Source of the DNA: Acidimicrobiia bacterium
GTDB lineage: Bacteria > Actinomycetota > Acidimicrobiia > IMCC26256 > DASPTH01
DNA: 35,008 nucleotides
Assembly: GCA_040880805.1 (NCBI GenBank)
Contig: JBBDHW010000020.1
Coordinates: 1 to 35,008, forward strand
Direction: 5' to 3'
Within the stretch, counting starts at the first letter, position 1; every line of letters starts with the position of its first letter. The translations under genes and the position numbers were made by a program. Below the pieces are notes generated by a model. That model saw only the letters and a program-made list of their open reading frames with translations, searched no databases and had not been told where the DNA came from. Positions 26,242-32,326 of this stretch are shown here, piece after piece.

Positions 26242-27369
26242 GTGCTCGGTGGGCGCTACCACCTCGTCGAGCCGCTCGCGCGCGGCGGCATGGCAGCGGT
26301 GTGGATCGCAGACGATCCGGTGTTGTCGCGTCGCGTCGCGGTGAAGATCCTGCGCGATGATCTCGCGGCGGACGAGGGCACGCGTGCGCGGTTCCGGCAC
26401 GAGGCGATCTCGGCGGCGCGCCTCAACCACCCTAATGTCGTCGCCACCTACGACACCGGTGACGACGGCGGCACCGCGTACATCGTGATGGAACTGATCG
26501 ACGGGCCCACCGTGCGACAACTGCTCCGCGAGCAGGGCCGGCTCCCGATCCGTGAAGCGATCCGCATCGGCGTGCAAGTGGCCGACGCGCTCGAAGCCGC
26601 TCACCGCGCCGGGATCGTGCACCGTGACGTCAAGCCTCCCAATGTGCTGGTGCCGCCGGCCGGGCCTGTGAAGGTTGCGGACTTCGGCATCGCCAAGGCG
26701 ACGGGCGCCGACGACCTCACGCGCACCGGCACCGTGATGGGCACCGCGCGCTACCTGGCGCCGGAGCAGGTGAACGGGAAGCCGACCGACGCGCGCACCG
26801 ACGTGTACGGCCTGGGCCTCCTGCTCTACGAGATGCTCTGCGGGCGTCCGCCCTTCGGCGGCGCCACCGACGTGGCCACTGCGATGGCACGGCTCACAAT
26901 GTCCGCGCCGTCGATCCGAGCGCAACGCTCCAACGTGCCCCAGTCGCTCGACGACGTCGTGCACCGGTGCCTCGCGCGCGATCCCGCGCGGCGCTTTGCC
27001 TCGGCCGGCGACGCTCGCGCCGCGCTCGCCGCGGTACGACCCGATCCGAGGCCCGCTCTCCGTTCAGGCACGGAGCCGGCACCACGACCGACTCCCCGCC
27101 CGCCGAGGGCGGTACCAACTCCCCGTTCAGGCACGAAGTCGGCCGCGAGGCGACGGAGCGGGGTCACCTGGGTCTGGGTTGTCATCGTGTTCCTCCTCGC
27201 GATCGCCATCGCCGTGACCGCGTTCCTCGTGCTGCGCGACGACGAGCGCGGCACGAGCTCGACCTCGCCCGCTCCCCGTTCAGGCACGGAGCCGGCGCCC
27301 CGTTCAGCCACGGAGCCGGCTTGGCACGTCGACATCACCGTCACCATCACCGGGGCGAAGCTTGCGTGA
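26242..27369 (+). CDS. Membrane Ser/Thr protein kinase with minimal external domain
   Basis: This is a 375-residue eukaryotic-like kinase. The kinase domain (1-265) has the P-loop ARGGMAAV, Lys35 (VAVKIL), Glu54, HRDVKPPN with Asp129 and Asn134, DFG at 147-149 and APEQ, so it should be active. A Pro/Arg linker with two dispersed-repeat copies follows. One transmembrane helix spans about 309-331. A tail of only about 45 residues outside carries two more copies (RSGTEPAP, RSATEPA) and no PASTA domain. A CTG at 26224 in the same frame would give the family-like start TTPGRVLGGRY. Nearby MurJ and CwlM are plausible substrates, because CwlM is a PknB target in mycobacteria. Confidence 0.93.
   Translation: MLGGRYHLVEPLARGGMAAVWIADDPVLSRRVAVKILRDDLAADEGTRARFRHEAISAARLNHPNVVATYDTGDDGGTAYIVMELIDGPTVRQLLREQGRLPIREAIRIGVQVADALEAAHRAGIVHRDVKPPNVLVPPAGPVKVADFGIAKATGADDLTRTGTVMGTARYLAPEQVNGKPTDARTDVYGLGLLLYEMLCGRPPFGGATDVATAMARLTMSAPSIRAQRSNVPQSLDDVVHRCLARDPARRFASAGDARAALAAVRPDPRPALRSGTEPAPRPTPRPPRAVPTPRSGTKSAARRRSGVTWVWVVIVFLLAIAIAVTAFLVLRDDERGTSSTSPAPRSGTEPAPRSATEPAWHVDITVTITGAKLA
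27056..27083 (+). repeat. Dispersed repeat copy 5
   Basis: CGTTCAGGCACGGAGCCGGC lies in the cytoplasmic linker of the kinase, read as RSGTEPA. Confidence 0.8.
27119..27144 (+). repeat. Dispersed repeat copy 6
   Basis: CTCCCCGTTCAGGCACGAAG is followed by TCGGCC. Two changes from the core give RSGTKSA, just before the kinase membrane helix. Confidence 0.75.
27272..27299 (+). repeat. Dispersed repeat copy 7
   Basis: This is a full-length consensus copy, CTCC-CCGTTCAGGCACGGAG-CCGGCGCC, in the external tail of the kinase. Confidence 0.8.
27298..27320 (+). repeat. Dispersed repeat copy 8 (tandem with copy 7)
   Basis: CGTTCAGCCACGGAGCCGGC lies 24 bases (8 codons) after copy 7, one base different, read as RSATEPA. 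This is direct tandem duplication of the unit. Confidence 0.8.
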
Positions 27370-27925
27370 CGACGATGCCGACCTTGCCGCGCGCGCTTCC
27401 CGTGGTGACCGCCGCGCATTGGAGACACTGCTCGACCGGCACGCCGATCGCGTGCACGCGCTGTGCCGACGCGTGCTCGCACACCCCGAGGACGCCCTCG
27501 ACGCAACGCAGGAAGCGATGATCGCGATCGCCCGGGGCATCACGCGTTTCGACGGACGCTCGGCGTTCACGACCTGGCTGTACCGCGTCGCGACGAACGC
27601 CGCTCTCGACGAGCTGCGGCGCAAACGACGCCGGCCGGACCCCGTCGACGTCAGCGCCCTGGATCACGCGGTGCCCGGGCCCGCGCTCGACAGCTCGGTG
27701 AGCGACCGGGTCGACGTCGACACCGCCCTCGCCACCATCCCCAGCGAGTTCCGGGTTGCGGTCGTGCTGCGCGACCTGTGCGACCTCGACTACGCGGAGA
27801 TCGCCGAGGCGCTCGGCATCCCACCGGGCACCGTGCGCTCGCGGATCGCGCGCGGCCGGACGCTGCTTGCCACCGCGCTCGGGAACCCCGAAGCCCCCTC
27901 CGGACGTCTGAGTACTGATGGCTGA
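27362..27925 (+). CDS. ECF sigma factor (SigM-like position)
   Basis: This is a 187-residue extracytoplasmic-function sigma factor. Region 2 spans about 18-85 and includes ATQEAMIAIARGITRFDG and FTTWLYRVATNAALDELRRK. Region 4 spans about 125-175 and includes LRDLCDLDYAEIAEALGIPPGTVRSRIARGR. TTG 27362 overlaps the kinase stop by 8 bases; no other in-frame start lies before region 2. Its 3' end overlaps the next gene by 8 bases. The order sigma, membrane protein, trxB, trxA, cwlM equals mycobacterial sigM-rsmA-trxB2-trxC-cwlM. The promoters it recognises are unknown. Confidence 0.93.
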   Translation: MRDDDADLAARASRGDRRALETLLDRHADRVHALCRRVLAHPEDALDATQEAMIAIARGITRFDGRSAFTTWLYRVATNAALDELRRKRRRPDPVDVSALDHAVPGPALDSSVSDRVDVDTALATIPSEFRVAVVLRDLCDLDYAEIAEALGIPPGTVRSRIARGRTLLATALGNPEAPSGRLSTDG

Positions 27926-28613
27926 CAACGGCGACGCGCGAGACGAGCGCCTCTCCGGGCTGCTCGAGGTCGAGCCGCTCGACGAGCTCACGCGCCGGCG
28001 GCTGGTAACCACCGCGGTGCGCGCGTCCGCGCCGCCAGCGCGTAGTAGTTCTCGTCGTCTGGTCGTCGCCGCCGCGATCGGCGGCGTGGTGATCGCGGCG
28101 GGCGTCGGCTATCTCGTGTCGCGCGACAGCGACAGCGCCACACCAACCGCGAGCCGCGAGAACGCAGACACTGCGAGTGGATCCGAGAAGGGAACGTCGA
28201 CCGCAACGCCGTCATCGGCGCCGGCTTCGCTCACTCCGCAATCCGAGCAGGGCGCGCTCGACGACGCCGCGCCTGCTCCCCGTTCAAGCACTGAGCCGAC
28301 GCCACGCGATGCGGGCGACTTCGGCGACCTCCGCGTCGTCGCCAACGTCGACCGGCTCCGCACCGCGCTCGCGCGATCTGATCGTGCCGCCGCCTCGCCA
28401 CGCGAACCACCGTCCGATCGGGTCACGTCGCTCCTGGCACAACTCCGCACACGGTCGTGTGCGAGTGAGCTGCCTGCCGGCACCGTCGTCGCCATCGCCG
28501 CCGGGCGCTTCGGCACACGCGATGCGATCGTGGTGCAGACCGAGCTCCCCGACGGCACTCGATCGATCGACGCCATCGTCGCCCACCCGTGCGAGGTCCG
28601 CCCGCTCGACTGA
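27918..28613 (+). CDS. Membrane protein, likely anti-sigma factor
   Basis: This is a 231-residue protein. The cytoplasmic N-terminus (1-47) contains a short helix DERLSGLLEVEPLDELTRRRLV. One transmembrane helix lies at about 49-67, and a Ser/Thr/Pro-rich external region includes one dispersed-repeat copy (RSSTEPTPRD). A folded C-terminal part (about 140-231) has two cysteines. The zinc-type anti-sigma motif (HxxxCxxC) is absent. The role is inferred from the 8-base overlap with the sigma gene and from the place of RsmA (Rv3912) in mycobacteria. Confidence 0.7.
   Translation: MADNGDARDERLSGLLEVEPLDELTRRRLVTTAVRASAPPARSSSRRLVVAAAIGGVVIAAGVGYLVSRDSDSATPTASRENADTASGSEKGTSTATPSSAPASLTPQSEQGALDDAAPAPRSSTEPTPRDAGDFGDLRVVANVDRLRTALARSDRAAASPREPPSDRVTSLLAQLRTRSCASELPAGTVVAIAAGRFGTRDAIVVQTELPDGTRSIDAIVAHPCEVRPLD
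28275..28303 (+). repeat. Dispersed repeat copy 9 (diverged)
   Basis: CTCCCCGTTCAAGCACTGAG is followed by CCGACGCC. Three changes from consensus, in frame in the anti-sigma-like protein as RSSTEPTP. Confidence 0.7.
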
Positions 28614-28641
28614 GGACTCGCGGGTACGCTCGGGCACCCGA

Positions 28642-28708
28642 AACGAGCCCGAATCGAACGAGCCCCGATTCGAACGAGCCCCATTCGAACGAGCCCCATT
28701 CGAACGAG
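28642..28708 (+). repeat. 15-base tandem repeat upstream of a membrane protein gene
   Basis: There are four units and a third, close to AACGAGCCCCATTCG: 28642-28656, 28657-28672 (16 bases), 28673-28687, 28688-28702 and partial 28703-28708. The last two full units are identical. The array fills the spacer between the anti-sigma-like gene and the ribosome binding site AAGGAG (28710-28715). TACGCT at 28625-28630 could be a -10, which would place the repeat in the 5' untranslated region. Confidence 0.85.
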
Positions 28709-28722
28709 CAAGGAGCACGGCC

Positions 28723-29016
28723 GTGGCCGACTGGACAACCGACGCGGTCGACGCGCTCGAGCACGCCGTCGGCCTGGTTCGCGACAAGACCGTCGTCCCC
28801 GCCCAGAAGGCGTCTCGTGCCGTCGTCTTCGGGTTCCTCGTCGCATTCTTCGTGCTGGTCGCGGTGTTCATGCTCGCGATAGCGCTATTCCGGGTGCTCG
28901 TGATCCTCACCGGCGAGGTCTGGCTCGCGTACCTCATCCTCGGCGGAATCTTCGTGATCGGCGGGATGTTCTGCTGGACACTGCGCACCAGCAAGGCGAA
29001 GGACACGAATGCCTGA
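28723..29016 (+). CDS. Small two-helix membrane protein, holin-X-like
   Basis: This is a 97-residue protein starting at GTG 28723, with AAGGAG 7 bases upstream. An amphipathic N-terminal helix (DAVDALEHAVGLVRDKTVVP) is followed by two membrane helices (about 33-58 and 62-87) and a short basic end. The layout resembles the Actinobacterial Holin-X superfamily (phage holin 3_6), which is widespread on chromosomes and not evidence of a phage. The stop overlaps trxB by 8 bases. The function is unknown. The tandem repeat upstream may affect its expression. Confidence 0.75.
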   Translation: MADWTTDAVDALEHAVGLVRDKTVVPAQKASRAVVFGFLVAFFVLVAVFMLAIALFRVLVILTGEVWLAYLILGGIFVIGGMFCWTLRTSKAKDTNA

Positions 29017-29947
29017 AACGCACGAACTCGTCATCGTCGGCTCGGGCCCGGCTGGTCTCACCGCGGCGGTCTACGCGGGCCGGGCGAATCTTGCGCCGAT
29101 CGTGATCGAGGGCATCGGCGCCGGCGGCCAGCTCATGCTCACCACCGACGTCGAGAACTACCCGGGGTTCCCCGACGGCATCCTCGGCCCCGAGCTCATG
29201 ATGAAGTTCCGCGAGCAGGCAGAACGCTTCGGCGCTGAGTTCGTCACCGCCGATGTCGACCGCGTCGACCTCTCGTCCGCACCGTTCGGCGTGTGGGTCG
29301 GCGAGCGCGAGTACCGCTCACGCGCGCTCATCGTCAGCAGCGGCGCGACCGCGCGCATGCTGGGGCTTCCCAACGAGCAACGCCTGTTGGGCCACGGCGT
29401 GTCCACGTGCGCGACGTGTGACGGCTTCTTCTTCCGAGAGAAGCCGATCGCGGTCGTGGGTGGCGGCGACTCGGCAATCGAAGAGGCGCTGTTCCTCACG
29501 AAGTTCGCCACGAAGGTCACCATCGTCCACCGGCGCGACGAGTTGCGCGCGTCGAAGATCATGCAAGACCGCGCGTTTGCGAACCCGAAGATCGAGTTCG
29601 CGTGGAACGCCGTCGTCGACGATGTTCTCGGGGACAGGTCGGTCGAGTCGTTGCGCATGCGCGACACCGTGACCGGCGCGCAGTCGGACCTCGACGTGCA
29701 AGGACTCTTTGTCGCGATCGGTCACGATCCCACGACCGCGCTCTTCCGCGGCCAACTCGATCTCGACGACGACGGGTACATCGTCACCGCGGCCGACTCC
29801 ACGCGCACGTCGGTCAAGGGTGTGTTCGCGTGCGGCGATGTGCAAGACCGCGTCTACCGGCAGGCGATCACCGCGGCCGGAAGCGGCTGCATGGCCGCAA
29901 TGGAGACGGAACGCTGGCTCGGCGAACACGCCCACGCGGCGCACTGA
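29009..29947 (+). CDS. trxB: Thioredoxin-disulfide reductase
   Basis: This 312-residue flavoenzyme passes electrons from NADPH to thioredoxin. The FAD motif is GSGPAGLTAAVYAGRA (11-26). The redox pair is Cys134 and Cys137 in STCATCDG. The NADPH motif is VVGGGDSAIEEALFL (about 149-163), and the C-terminal FAD motif is GVFACGDVQD. The ATG overlaps the small membrane protein gene. trxA follows after a 93-base spacer that holds its own promoter, so the two genes may be expressed differently under thiol stress. Confidence 0.97.
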   Translation: MPETHELVIVGSGPAGLTAAVYAGRANLAPIVIEGIGAGGQLMLTTDVENYPGFPDGILGPELMMKFREQAERFGAEFVTADVDRVDLSSAPFGVWVGEREYRSRALIVSSGATARMLGLPNEQRLLGHGVSTCATCDGFFFREKPIAVVGGGDSAIEEALFLTKFATKVTIVHRRDELRASKIMQDRAFANPKIEFAWNAVVDDVLGDRSVESLRMRDTVTGAQSDLDVQGLFVAIGHDPTTALFRGQLDLDDDGYIVTAADSTRTSVKGVFACGDVQDRVYRQAITAAGSGCMAAMETERWLGEHAHAAH

Positions 29948-29961
29948 CCCGCTCGCCTCGC

Positions 29962-29988
29962 GGGAATGTCCGGCAGGGCCGGGCCGTT
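29962..29988 (+). promoter_or_regulatory. SigR/SigH-type promoter before trxA
   Basis: GGGAAT (29962-29967), 18 bases, then GTT (29986-29988) preceded by C. This matches the GGGAAT-N18-GTT consensus of the thiol-stress sigma factors SigR (Streptomyces) and SigH (mycobacteria). Those sigma factors control thioredoxin genes, so the target gene fits. Whether the sigma factor encoded at 27362-27925 or another one uses it cannot be told. Confidence 0.7.
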
Positions 29989-30001
29989 CCCCTCACCGGA
30001 C

Positions 30002-30024
30002 CGGTCGGTAGACTCGACCGACCG
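30002..30024 (+). promoter_or_regulatory. Hairpin in the trxA leader
   Basis: CGGTCGGT and ACCGACCG form a perfect 8-base stem with a 7-base loop, ending 5 bases before the AAAGGA ribosome binding site. It may stabilise the leader or affect initiation. TAGACT within it (30009-30014) also fits a -10 element, so it could instead be an operator. Confidence 0.5.
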
Positions 30025-30040
30025 AATGAAAGGACCTTCC

Positions 30041-30370
30041 GTGGCCGAGGACATCGTCATTCTCTCCGATTCGACCTTCGACGAGACCGTCGGCGGCTCC
30101 GAGACGCCCGTTCTCGTCGACTTCTGGGCCGAATGGTGCGGACCGTGCAAGATGGTCGCTCCCACGCTCGTGGAGATCGCGGGTGAGCAGCGCGGGAAGC
30201 TCACGGTCGCCAAGCTCAACGTCGACGACAACCCCGATATCGCGCGCCGCTACGAGGTCATGAGCATCCCCACGTTGCTCGTCTTCAAGGACGGCCAGCC
30301 GGCGAAGCGCATCGTGGGCGCGAAGGGCAAAGGCGCGCTCCTTCAGGACCTCGCCGAGTTCATCGCTTGA
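30041..30370 (+). CDS. trxA: Thioredoxin
   Basis: This 109-residue classical thioredoxin has the active site WCGPC (Cys33 and Cys36) and the cis-Pro region SIPTLLVF. It reduces protein disulfides with electrons from TrxB. GTG 30041 is preferred over ATG 30026 because AAAGGA sits 6 bases before the GTG. The stop overlaps the TTG start of the CwlM-like gene (TTGA). Confidence 0.97.
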   Translation: MAEDIVILSDSTFDETVGGSETPVLVDFWAEWCGPCKMVAPTLVEIAGEQRGKLTVAKLNVDDNPDIARRYEVMSIPTLLVFKDGQPAKRIVGAKGKGALLQDLAEFIA

Positions 30371-31383
30371 GCGATCCGGCCGTGCTCCGGTCGGGCGGCA
30401 GCGGTGAGGCGGTCCGGGATCTTCAACGGCGCCTGCTCGCGCTCGGTCACCAGTTGCCACCCGAAGAGCTCGGGAGCTTCGGCCCCGCGACCGAGCGCGA
30501 GCTGCGCCGGTTCCAGGAGCGACGCTCGCTGCGGAGCGACGGCATCTGCGGACGTGAGACCTGGACTGCGCTCGTCGAGAGCGGGTTTCAACTCGGCGAT
30601 CGCATGCTCTACGTCCGGCGCCCGATGCTGCGCGGCGACGACGTCTCGGAACTCCAGCGGCGTCTCAACATGCTCGGCTTCGACGCCGGCAAGGAAGATG
30701 GGATCTTCGGGCCCGACACCGCCGGCGCGCTCACCGAGTTCCAGCGCAACGCCGGTCTGGGTTGTGACGGCATCTTCGGGCCCGACACCGCGCTGGCGCT
30801 CGGTCGCATCGGCGAGCTTCGCATCGGTACCCTCGCCGAGGGTTCGGTCGCGAGCGTCCGCGAGCGCGAAGCCCTGCGCCGCGGTCCGAACCGCATCGAG
30901 GGTCGGCGCGTCTTCCTCGCGGTCGCTCCGGGCCTCGATGCACTCGCCGACCGCGTGATGCGAGGCCTTCTCGAGGCGGGCGCCCTGGTGGTGCTCGACT
31001 CCTCCGGCAGCGACGACTCCGCGCTCGCTTCAGCTGCCAACCGCTACGGAGCCGACCTCTTCTTCGGGTTGAGACCTGGGGACGAGCCCGGCTGCCGCTG
31101 CTGTTTCTTCGAATCCGGGCAGTCCCGCTCGGAGGCCGGGTTCCATGTCGCGAAGGCGGTGAGCGACGAGCTCGGTGCCGTGCTCGCGACCACCGCTCAC
31201 GTGTGCGGGCGTCGCCACACCGCGCTCCGCGAGACGAACATGGCCGCCGTGCTGTGCGAACCGGCGGCGCACGCCGACGTCGACGGAACGCGGCGTCTCG
31301 TGACGGCCGGCGGTGACGTCGCCCGCGCCATCGTGGTGGGGATCCGTCGGGGAGTCGAGGAGCCAGCCGACCTCGACACCTGA
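30367..31383 (+). CDS. cwlM: CwlM-like protein: two peptidoglycan-binding domains and a degenerate amidase domain
   Basis: This is a 338-residue protein with a TTG start overlapping trxA. There is no signal peptide. Two PG_binding_1 repeats (about 8-72 and 88-148) each carry the FGPxT motif. The C-terminal part (about 180-330) follows the amidase_3 pattern, but zinc-ligand positions are lost: no DPGHGG motif (LAVAPGLDA instead), and the later conserved His is Arg in FFGLRPGD. In mycobacteria CwlM is a cytoplasmic pseudo-amidase that, when phosphorylated, activates MurA. The same role is likely here, fitting the nearby kinase and MurJ. Four cysteines at 243-280 are unusual. Confidence 0.88.
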   Translation: MSDPAVLRSGGSGEAVRDLQRRLLALGHQLPPEELGSFGPATERELRRFQERRSLRSDGICGRETWTALVESGFQLGDRMLYVRRPMLRGDDVSELQRRLNMLGFDAGKEDGIFGPDTAGALTEFQRNAGLGCDGIFGPDTALALGRIGELRIGTLAEGSVASVREREALRRGPNRIEGRRVFLAVAPGLDALADRVMRGLLEAGALVVLDSSGSDDSALASAANRYGADLFFGLRPGDEPGCRCCFFESGQSRSEAGFHVAKAVSDELGAVLATTAHVCGRRHTALRETNMAAVLCEPAAHADVDGTRRLVTAGGDVARAIVVGIRRGVEEPADLDT

Positions 31384-31399
31384 GCTGCCGAGAACCATC

Positions 31400-31417
31400 T
31401 AGTTGCAGGCGCAACTA
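31400..31417. terminator. Hairpin between convergent cwlM and parB
   Basis: TAGTTGC and GCAACTA form a perfect 7-base stem with a 4-base loop in the 31-base gap, reaching the parB stop codon. It reads the same on both strands and could end both transcripts, although no U-tract follows. Confidence 0.45.
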
Positions 31418-32326
31418 TGTGGTAGCCGGCGTGGTCGCTCCCTCGGTCATGAGCCGGTAGATCCGCTCGAGATCCTCGAGGGTCGAGAACTCCACGACCA
31501 CTTTGCCCCGCGCCGCACCCATGCTGATCGTCACGCGCGTCTCGAGGTGATCGCCGAGCAGCTCCTCGAGCTCGAGCAGGCCCGGTGGCCGCAGTGCCCC
31601 GCGCCGCGACTTCGGGGGCGCCCCGGCACCTGCAGTGACCGTCGAGGGTTGGCGGTCGTGGGATCGGATCGCGTCCTCGACCGCGCGGACCGAGAGGTCG
31701 TCCTGGACGACGCGCCGCGCGAGCTGCTCCTGGAACGCTCGATCAGGAGTCGCGAGGAGCGCCCGTGCCTGCCCCATGTTCAGCCGGCCTTCGTGCACGA
31801 GCTTCTGGATCGACGGAGGGAGCTGCAGGAGACGGAGCGAGTTGGTGACGCTCGTCCGGCTCTTCCCCACCTGCGAGGCGACCGCATCGTGGGTCAACCC
31901 GAAGTCCTCGATGAGTTGTTGATACGCCGCTGCTTCATCCAGTGGGTTGAGTCCGTCGCGGTGGAGGTTCTCGACCAGCGCATGCTGGAGGGACGTGGCG
32001 TCGTCGGTTTCGCGGACGAGCGCCGGCATCATCTGGAGCCCCACGCGCCGCGCCGCGCGCCACCGGCGCTCCCCGGCGATCAGCTCGTAGCCGTCGCCGA
32101 CCGGGCGAACAAGGACCGGCTGGAGTATCCCGACCTCTCGGATCGAATCGGCGAGCGCGCCGAGCGCTTCCTCGTCGAAGTGGTCACGGGGTTGGAAGCG
32201 GTTCGGCTGGATCGATGCCGTCGGCAGCTCTTCCAGGCCCACACCGGTGTCCGTATCGGCGTCGAGACTCGTCCCCGGAGGGATGAGCGCACCGAGTCCC
32301 TTACCCAGACCGCCGCGTCGCGCCAC
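31415..32326 (-). CDS. parB: Chromosome partitioning protein ParB
   Basis: This 303-residue CTP-dependent DNA clamp loads at parS and helps segregate origins. The N-terminal RRGGLGKGLGALIP (3-16) is the ParA-contact region. The CTP-binding motif is GERRWRAAR (85-93), ENLHRDGLNPLDEA (119-132) follows, and the parS-reading helix-turn-helix spans about 142-168 (THDAVASQVGKSRTSVTNSL). GTG 32326 lies within the parA 3' end (26-base overlap), with AGAGGTGAG just upstream. Two matching parS sites lie about 1.2 kb away. Confidence 0.97.
   Translation of the reverse strand: MARRGGLGKGLGALIPPGTSLDADTDTGVGLEELPTASIQPNRFQPRDHFDEEALGALADSIREVGILQPVLVRPVGDGYELIAGERRWRAARRVGLQMMPALVRETDDATSLQHALVENLHRDGLNPLDEAAAYQQLIEDFGLTHDAVASQVGKSRTSVTNSLRLLQLPPSIQKLVHEGRLNMGQARALLATPDRAFQEQLARRVVQDDLSVRAVEDAIRSHDRQPSTVTAGAGAPPKSRRGALRPPGLLELEELLGDHLETRVTISMGAARGKVVVEFSTLEDLERIYRLMTEGATTPATT

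Follow-up and report, generated by a model that had tools for sequence, protein, structure and literature searches.

SigR promoters, as described in the excerpts of the literature on which we draw here, read GGAAT-N18-19-GTT, with that of trxB serving as a reference (PMC9205884), and the trxBA genes are a SigR target (PMC3961337). In Streptomyces, sigR is autoregulated and the rsrA promoter sits inside sigR, which sets a precedent for a promoter within coding sequence (PMC5472188). SigH of Mycobacterium tuberculosis reads GGAAYR-N17-GTT with a purine preferred at the sixth position of the -35 element, and trxB2 is 67-fold SigH-dependent (PMC4803200). In the same species, trxC starts inside trxB2, so that there is no intergenic promoter there, and a separate start with a putative SigE promoter serves cwlM (PMC7527780). 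Deletion of rshA in Corynebacterium glutamicum was reported to raise trxB 3.53-fold, trxC 2.97-fold, and cwlM 2.33-fold (PMC3489674).

Here, we analyzed the trxB-trxA-cwlM locus in a 35,008-nt stretch of DNA from an Acidimicrobiia bacterium (hereafter, the window; its genome is denoted G000). Judging from sequence comparison, we consider it likely that this operon is served by two SigR-type (ECF) promoters, one located in upstream coding sequence and one intergenic, together with a downstream housekeeping -10 element. The features along the DNA are as follows:

27362-27925, + strand: ECF sigma factor gene, nearest SigM by profile scores and distinct from the SigR of this genome
28723-29016, + strand: holin-like membrane protein gene (PF07332, 30.4 bits, cut-off 28.4), overlapping the trxB start
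28945-28970, + strand: second putative SigR-type promoter, GGAAT-N18-GTT, 64 nt before trxB and inside the holin-like coding sequence
29009-29947, + strand: trxB, thioredoxin reductase (TIGR01292, 408.4 bits, cut-off 343.45)
29962-29988, + strand: putative SigR-type promoter before trxA, GGGAAT-N18-GTT, with a predicted start at ~29993-29998
30002-30024, + strand: 8-bp hairpin around TAGACT, not common to relatives
30009-30014, + strand: TAGACT, probable housekeeping -10 element, with a predicted start at ~30020-30022
30029-30034, + strand: AAAGGA, ribosome-binding site of trxA as read from the sequence
30041-30370, + strand: trxA, thioredoxin (TIGR01068, 125.9 bits, cut-off 96.8), with a GTG start at 30041
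30367-31383, + strand: cwlM-like gene with two peptidoglycan-binding domains, overlapping trxA by 4 bp

The intergenic site before trxA

The site before trxA, GGGAATGTCCGGCAGGGCCGGGCCGTT, occupies positions 29962-29988, and we found it, the 8-bp hairpin, and the AAAGGA all at the places given by an earlier sequence-only reading of this DNA. It is the sole exact GGGAAT-N17..19-GTT in the window, but at least one such match also arose in 15 of 100 window shuffles (mean 0.18), and the window by itself thus proves little about the site. Its -35 element GGAAT (29963-29967) recurs at the second site, before trxB (28945-28949), and fits the GGAAY of SigR/SigH; the spacing to the -10 GTT is N18 at both sites, within the SigR range of 18-19, while the sixth -35 position is G before trxA and C before trxB. 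A scan of 27300-31500 returned neither consensus sigma-70 promoters nor terminators, and a near-identity plasmid search with 29700-30400 as the query came back empty.

When relatives are compared, the site exceeds chance. TrxB was searched for in the genome of the window, 57 others from its order, and three from its class (61 in all), and 59 of these matched. Nine of the matched genomes were set aside because their TrxB matches were only partial or distant; of the 50 loci used, 49 have trxA (all but L047). In 29 of these 49 loci, spread over 12 families (shared ancestry ignored), GGAAT-N17..19-GTT occurred in the 130 nt upstream of trxA, with a spacing of 18 in 24 loci, 19 in five, and 17 in none; when spacings of 10-29 were considered, the only others were one locus at 10 and one at 11. 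Dinucleotide shuffles of the same upstream regions (300 rounds) yielded a mean of 0.08 and a maximum of 2 of 49 loci, and among 90 letter permutations of the motif the runner-up, GAATG...GTT, which overlaps the true motif, reached 19 loci. The exact motif was lacking before trxA in 20 of the 49 loci: L040 carries a GGAAC form and some have little intergenic room, yet others (e.g., L006, L010, L018, and L022) have the room and no site. At one locus (L034, genome G005), trxA lies 1.2 kb away from trxB and a SigR-type motif is kept at both genes (N19 for trxA, N18 for trxB). Judged by this conservation, the trxA promoter appears to be real, and its assignment to the SigR type is well supported by comparison.

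Downstream of this site, TAGACT probably constitutes a housekeeping -10 element: 28 of 49 loci carry TA[CG]A[CA]T in the 75 nt that precede trxA, versus a mean of 0.92 after shuffling, and no -35 element common to the loci was seen upstream of TAxxxT in 34 aligned loci. The hairpin around it (CGGTCGGT-AGACTCG-ACCGACCG) has eight perfect pairs and a loop of 7. None of 100 mononucleotide shuffles reached an 8-bp stem in the 48-nt leader; perfect hairpins of at least 8 bp with a loop of 3-9 occur at 18 places (25 listed calls) across the 35-kb window, and the folding of 29945-30043 was no better than that of shuffles (z -0.18). The hairpin had been put forward as a leader element, and a structure common to relatives did not emerge: among 30 loci with a GGAAY motif before trxA, the stem in the window is the longest, L004 has seven pairs elsewhere in the leader, and the rest have two to five. 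Moreover, in the 19 loci with both elements, the gap from GTT to TA[CG]A[CA]T is 8-14 nt in 18 and 20 nt in the window, which implies ~9 extra nt in the window that include part of one hairpin arm. A regulatory role of the hairpin is disfavored because relatives lack it, and its position beside the promoter looks incidental.

A site held by codon choice before trxB

The sequence-only reading had taken the promoter to be specific to trxA. This was not supported, as a second site precedes trxB at 28945-28970, with a -35 element that appears to be held by codon choice. Of 49 loci, 33 have GGAAY-N17..19-GTT in the 400 nt upstream of trxB and 31 have it in the last 160 nt (counts that leave out L049, where trxB is cut), and 20 loci carry sites before both trxB and trxA. 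Since the trxB site lies in Holin-X-like coding sequence (PF07332), protein conservation could explain it. We therefore examined the Gly codon over the -35 element after placing the loci by protein alignment only, which succeeded for 46 of 50. Opposite the GGA of the -35, 37 of the 46 have Gly and the other nine a different residue; 36 of these 37 Gly codons, in 17 families, are GGA (shared ancestry ignored), the exception being GGC in L022. For comparison, the preceding Gly is GGA in 5 of 34, and the GGA share among Gly codons in the same trxB genes is ~10%. Likewise, a third-position G before the TT of the -10 occurred in 32 of 34 loci versus 14.2 expected, with 2 of the 34 placed using the DNA motif. 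The codon test thus speaks against protein conservation as the explanation of the trxB site and points to a -35 element maintained at the level of codon choice. Separately, tandem near-copies of TTCGAACGAGCCCCA were seen by eye just before the holin-like gene, at 28650-28710.

A wider comparison covered the best 80 of 579 related places, and hence a nonrandom sample. Within these 80, the motif was present within 300 nt upstream of trxB in all 28 genus-named Actinomycetes isolates, and before trxA in 2 of the 26 such isolates with an adjoining trxA, both Nocardioides. Among the 17 Acidimicrobiia-titled loci of the same best 80, none had the motif before trxB, while 9 of the 16 with trxA next to it had it before trxA (two of these nine as GGAAC, and one at N19 and 180 nt away). 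Several of the 17 have different residues or Gly codons at that place in the holin-like gene, as in L138, where Gly-Val is written with GGC. These counts suggest that a part of the lineage has the trxB site within coding sequence, and that the trxA site is more widespread in the lineage.

The predicted regulator and its reach

Profile scores did not support the ECF gene 2 kb upstream, pointed out in the sequence-only reading, as the likely regulator. Its product scored 137.4 bits against the SigM model NF007225 (below the cut-off of 190) and 77.4 bits against the SigR/SigH model TIGR02947, whereas the SigR of the genome, encoded on another contig (G000:C8:24706-25245), scored 247.1 bits against the latter, just under its cut-off of 251.55. 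The window scan found no GGAAT-type site within 300 nt upstream of the SigM-like gene. The gene that follows it (27918-28613) encodes a 231-residue product without a Pfam or NCBIfam match; one hydrophobic stretch, seen by eye, suggests that this is perhaps a membrane anti-sigma factor. Directly downstream of the sigR gene lies a gene for RsrA (76.4 bits, cut-off 62.5) with the zinc motif H-x3-C-x2-C. The best solved relative of this SigR is M. tuberculosis SigH, with a nearly identical region-4 stretch; S. coelicolor SigR fragments also match it, and the match of the genome's RsrA to that of S. coelicolor is weak (E 2.2e-5). The idea of a SigR-type promoter before trxA thus gained support from the conserved motif and spacing and from a genome that encodes SigR and RsrA.

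Of the 61 genomes, 51 have a SigR-level match (194 bits or more); since some of the remaining 10 are incomplete or have a split gene (G007, G031, and G054), not all of them are true absences. GGGAAT-GTT at spacing 18 versus 14 occurred 508 to 324 times in the 51 genomes and 116 to 112 times in the 10, counts uncorrected for the base composition, which differs between the sets. The 44 genomes with a SigR match of at least 230 bits gave 398 to 210 (34 up, 9 down, and 1 equal), and the seven with weaker matches displayed no excess at spacing 18 (110 to 114). In the three genomes where the locus is present and RsrA had no match (G027, G033, and G038), both sites are absent, versus 4 of 47 other loci (Fisher p 0.0018, ancestry ignored); the locus of G033, L039, has kept the GGA codon and lost the -10. 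G003 and G012 have the sites and no SigR-level match, with only weaker ECF and RsrA-like pairs. No SigR-type site was found within 330 nt upstream of sigR in any of 30 loci (L051-L080, where L077 is the sigR of the window's genome). TAxxxT lies 5-20 nt before the sigR start codon in 28 of these 30 (a raw count). This suggests that sigR is transcribed without a leader from a housekeeping promoter and is not autoregulated. In the window's own genome, sigR lacks this element by eye.

In a genome-wide search, GGGAAT-N18-GTT matched at 22 places in the window's genome versus 7 for the wrong-spacing control of 14 (two-sided p 0.008); a reversed-pattern control (22 to 1) overstates the enrichment. 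Ten of the 22 precede plausible genes, which start 35-103 nt past the first base of the motif (start codons as read): lon, trxA, dnaK, and genes for an AhpC/TSA peroxiredoxin, a DUF4193 protein, a GyrI-like protein, two glyoxalase-family proteins, a zinc-ribbon protein, and a DUF427 protein. Six more fall within evident coding sequence and six are ambiguous, and the trxB site, CGGAAT, falls outside this search pattern. One match (L128, G000:C61:43449-43475, minus strand) is closely followed by an open frame of 81 codons that has an H-x3-C-x2-C anti-sigma-like motif and no Pfam match and is divergent from an ECF gene at C61:43556-44062.

As for cwlM, in 45 of 48 loci its start, as set by alignment, is no more than 62 nt from the stop codon of trxA, and none of the 48 showed a SigR-type site in the 160 nt upstream of cwlM. 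The CwlM-like protein has two PG_binding_1 domains and no amidase domain (Pfam, E up to 0.01). Since cwlM overlaps trxA by 4 bp, some thiol-stress input to it is expected, and the gene should follow the predicted trxA promoter. To ask, as had been done from the sequence, whether cwlM is tied to thiol stress is reasonable, but there is a precedent in C. glutamicum, where the co-induction of cwlM is weak (PMC3489674, as excerpted).

Four other explanations can be weighed against these data. A chance match as the origin of the trxA motif would sit well with the 15 shuffled windows that hold one and with the seven matches at spacing 14 in the same genome, but it is extremely improbable given that 29 of 49 loci carry the motif and shuffles average 0.08. 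We also think it very unlikely that the hairpin is a working leader element, such as an attenuator or an RNA-thermometer-like structure, that is specific to the SigR-driven trxA mRNA: although its eight perfect pairs in a 48-nt leader were never reached in 100 shuffles, just one other of the 30 motif loci has a comparable stem (seven pairs, at a different leader position), one arm sits in the ~9 extra nt between GTT and TAGACT, and there is no T-run.

The trxB site might instead have arisen from constraints on the holin-like protein or its translation, which would leave the trxA site as the only promoter. This site does lie within a conserved Gly-Gly-Ile stretch, and GGA is kept in L037 and L039 without the -10; yet we judge this explanation unlikely in view of GGA in 36 of 37 loci versus 5 of 34 at the neighboring Gly, of the Leu beside the -10 being written TTG in L002, L021, and L031, and of the motif upstream of trxB in 28 of 28 genus-named Actinomycetes isolates among the best 80 of 579. 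Finally, both sites might be read by another ECF factor, SigE- or SigM-like with a GGAAY/GTT preference, in which case the operon would answer envelope rather than thiol stress. The genome appears to have many ECF genes (TIGR02947 matches 20 places at E up to 0.001), the excerpted M. tuberculosis papers report overlapping SigE and SigH motifs (PMC4803200) and the putative SigE promoter of cwlM (PMC7527780), the trxB site reads GGAATC and not GGAATR, and the sites remain in G003 and G012. Against this stand a spacing and -10 that agree with SigR, the lack of both sites in the three genomes where RsrA had no match, and the SigM-like gene of the window, which has no such site in the 300 nt upstream, and we regard this possibility, too, as doubtful.

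A proposed circuit and its known counterparts

The reading that we prefer, a trxB-trxA-cwlM operon with two SigR-type promoters, builds on what was observed directly: the sites, their conservation, the codon-level constraint, and the presence of SigR and RsrA in the genome. Under reducing conditions, RsrA would hold SigR, as in known SigR-RsrA biology, and trxA-cwlM would be transcribed at a basal level from TAGACT. Upon thiol oxidation, RsrA would lose its zinc and release SigR, and SigR-RNA polymerase would start at both GGAAT-N18-GTT sites, such that TrxB and extra TrxA are made, after which reduced thioredoxin would reset RsrA. The internal promoter would raise TrxA relative to TrxB, and cwlM, which overlaps trxA, would share the response through it. 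With this arrangement, the two halves of the thioredoxin operon would both respond to one redox-sensing system. For the lineage as a whole, we lean modestly toward a scheme in which a non-autoregulated SigR enters the operon twice, once through a codon-held promoter in a small membrane-protein gene and once through a second promoter that would boost thioredoxin over the reductase and draw CwlM into the response to thiol stress. These findings predict from sequence how thiol stress is wired in an actinobacterial lineage that has been little cultured, and the trxB site provides a clear case of a stress promoter that appears to be kept by codon choice within another gene, where annotation would miss it. 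The proposed circuit also makes it testable whether peptidoglycan control via CwlM is linked to the cytoplasmic redox state.

Among known systems, the Streptomyces SigR-RsrA/trxBA system shares with the locus GGAAT-N18-19-GTT, SigR and RsrA, and thioredoxin targets (PMC9205884 and PMC5472188, as excerpted). The locus differs in the additional site between trxB and trxA, in a trxB site that lies inside coding sequence, and, unlike Streptomyces with its sigRp2, in sigR genes without a SigR-type site upstream (0 of 30 loci); autoregulation is a feature of the Streptomyces circuit and not of the promoter type. The gene order is that of trxB2-trxC-cwlM in M. tuberculosis, as given in the excerpted text. 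In the SigH-RshA system of C. glutamicum, all three genes of trxB-trxC-cwlM rise in the rshA deletion, and the excerpted text of PMC3489674 mentions no site between trxB and trxC. The literature searched, in excerpts and mostly from outside subscription journals, named no SigR promoter for the trxB-trxA interval of this lineage, which is weak evidence for novelty. A similar layout was found, by motif alone, in trxB-trxA loci of Nocardioides and Euzebyaceae (L188, L197, and L136), which, like the window, carry a SigR-type motif before both genes. As predicted from these comparisons, the locus is a new arrangement of a known promoter type, with two SigR-type entries, one of them inside a gene.
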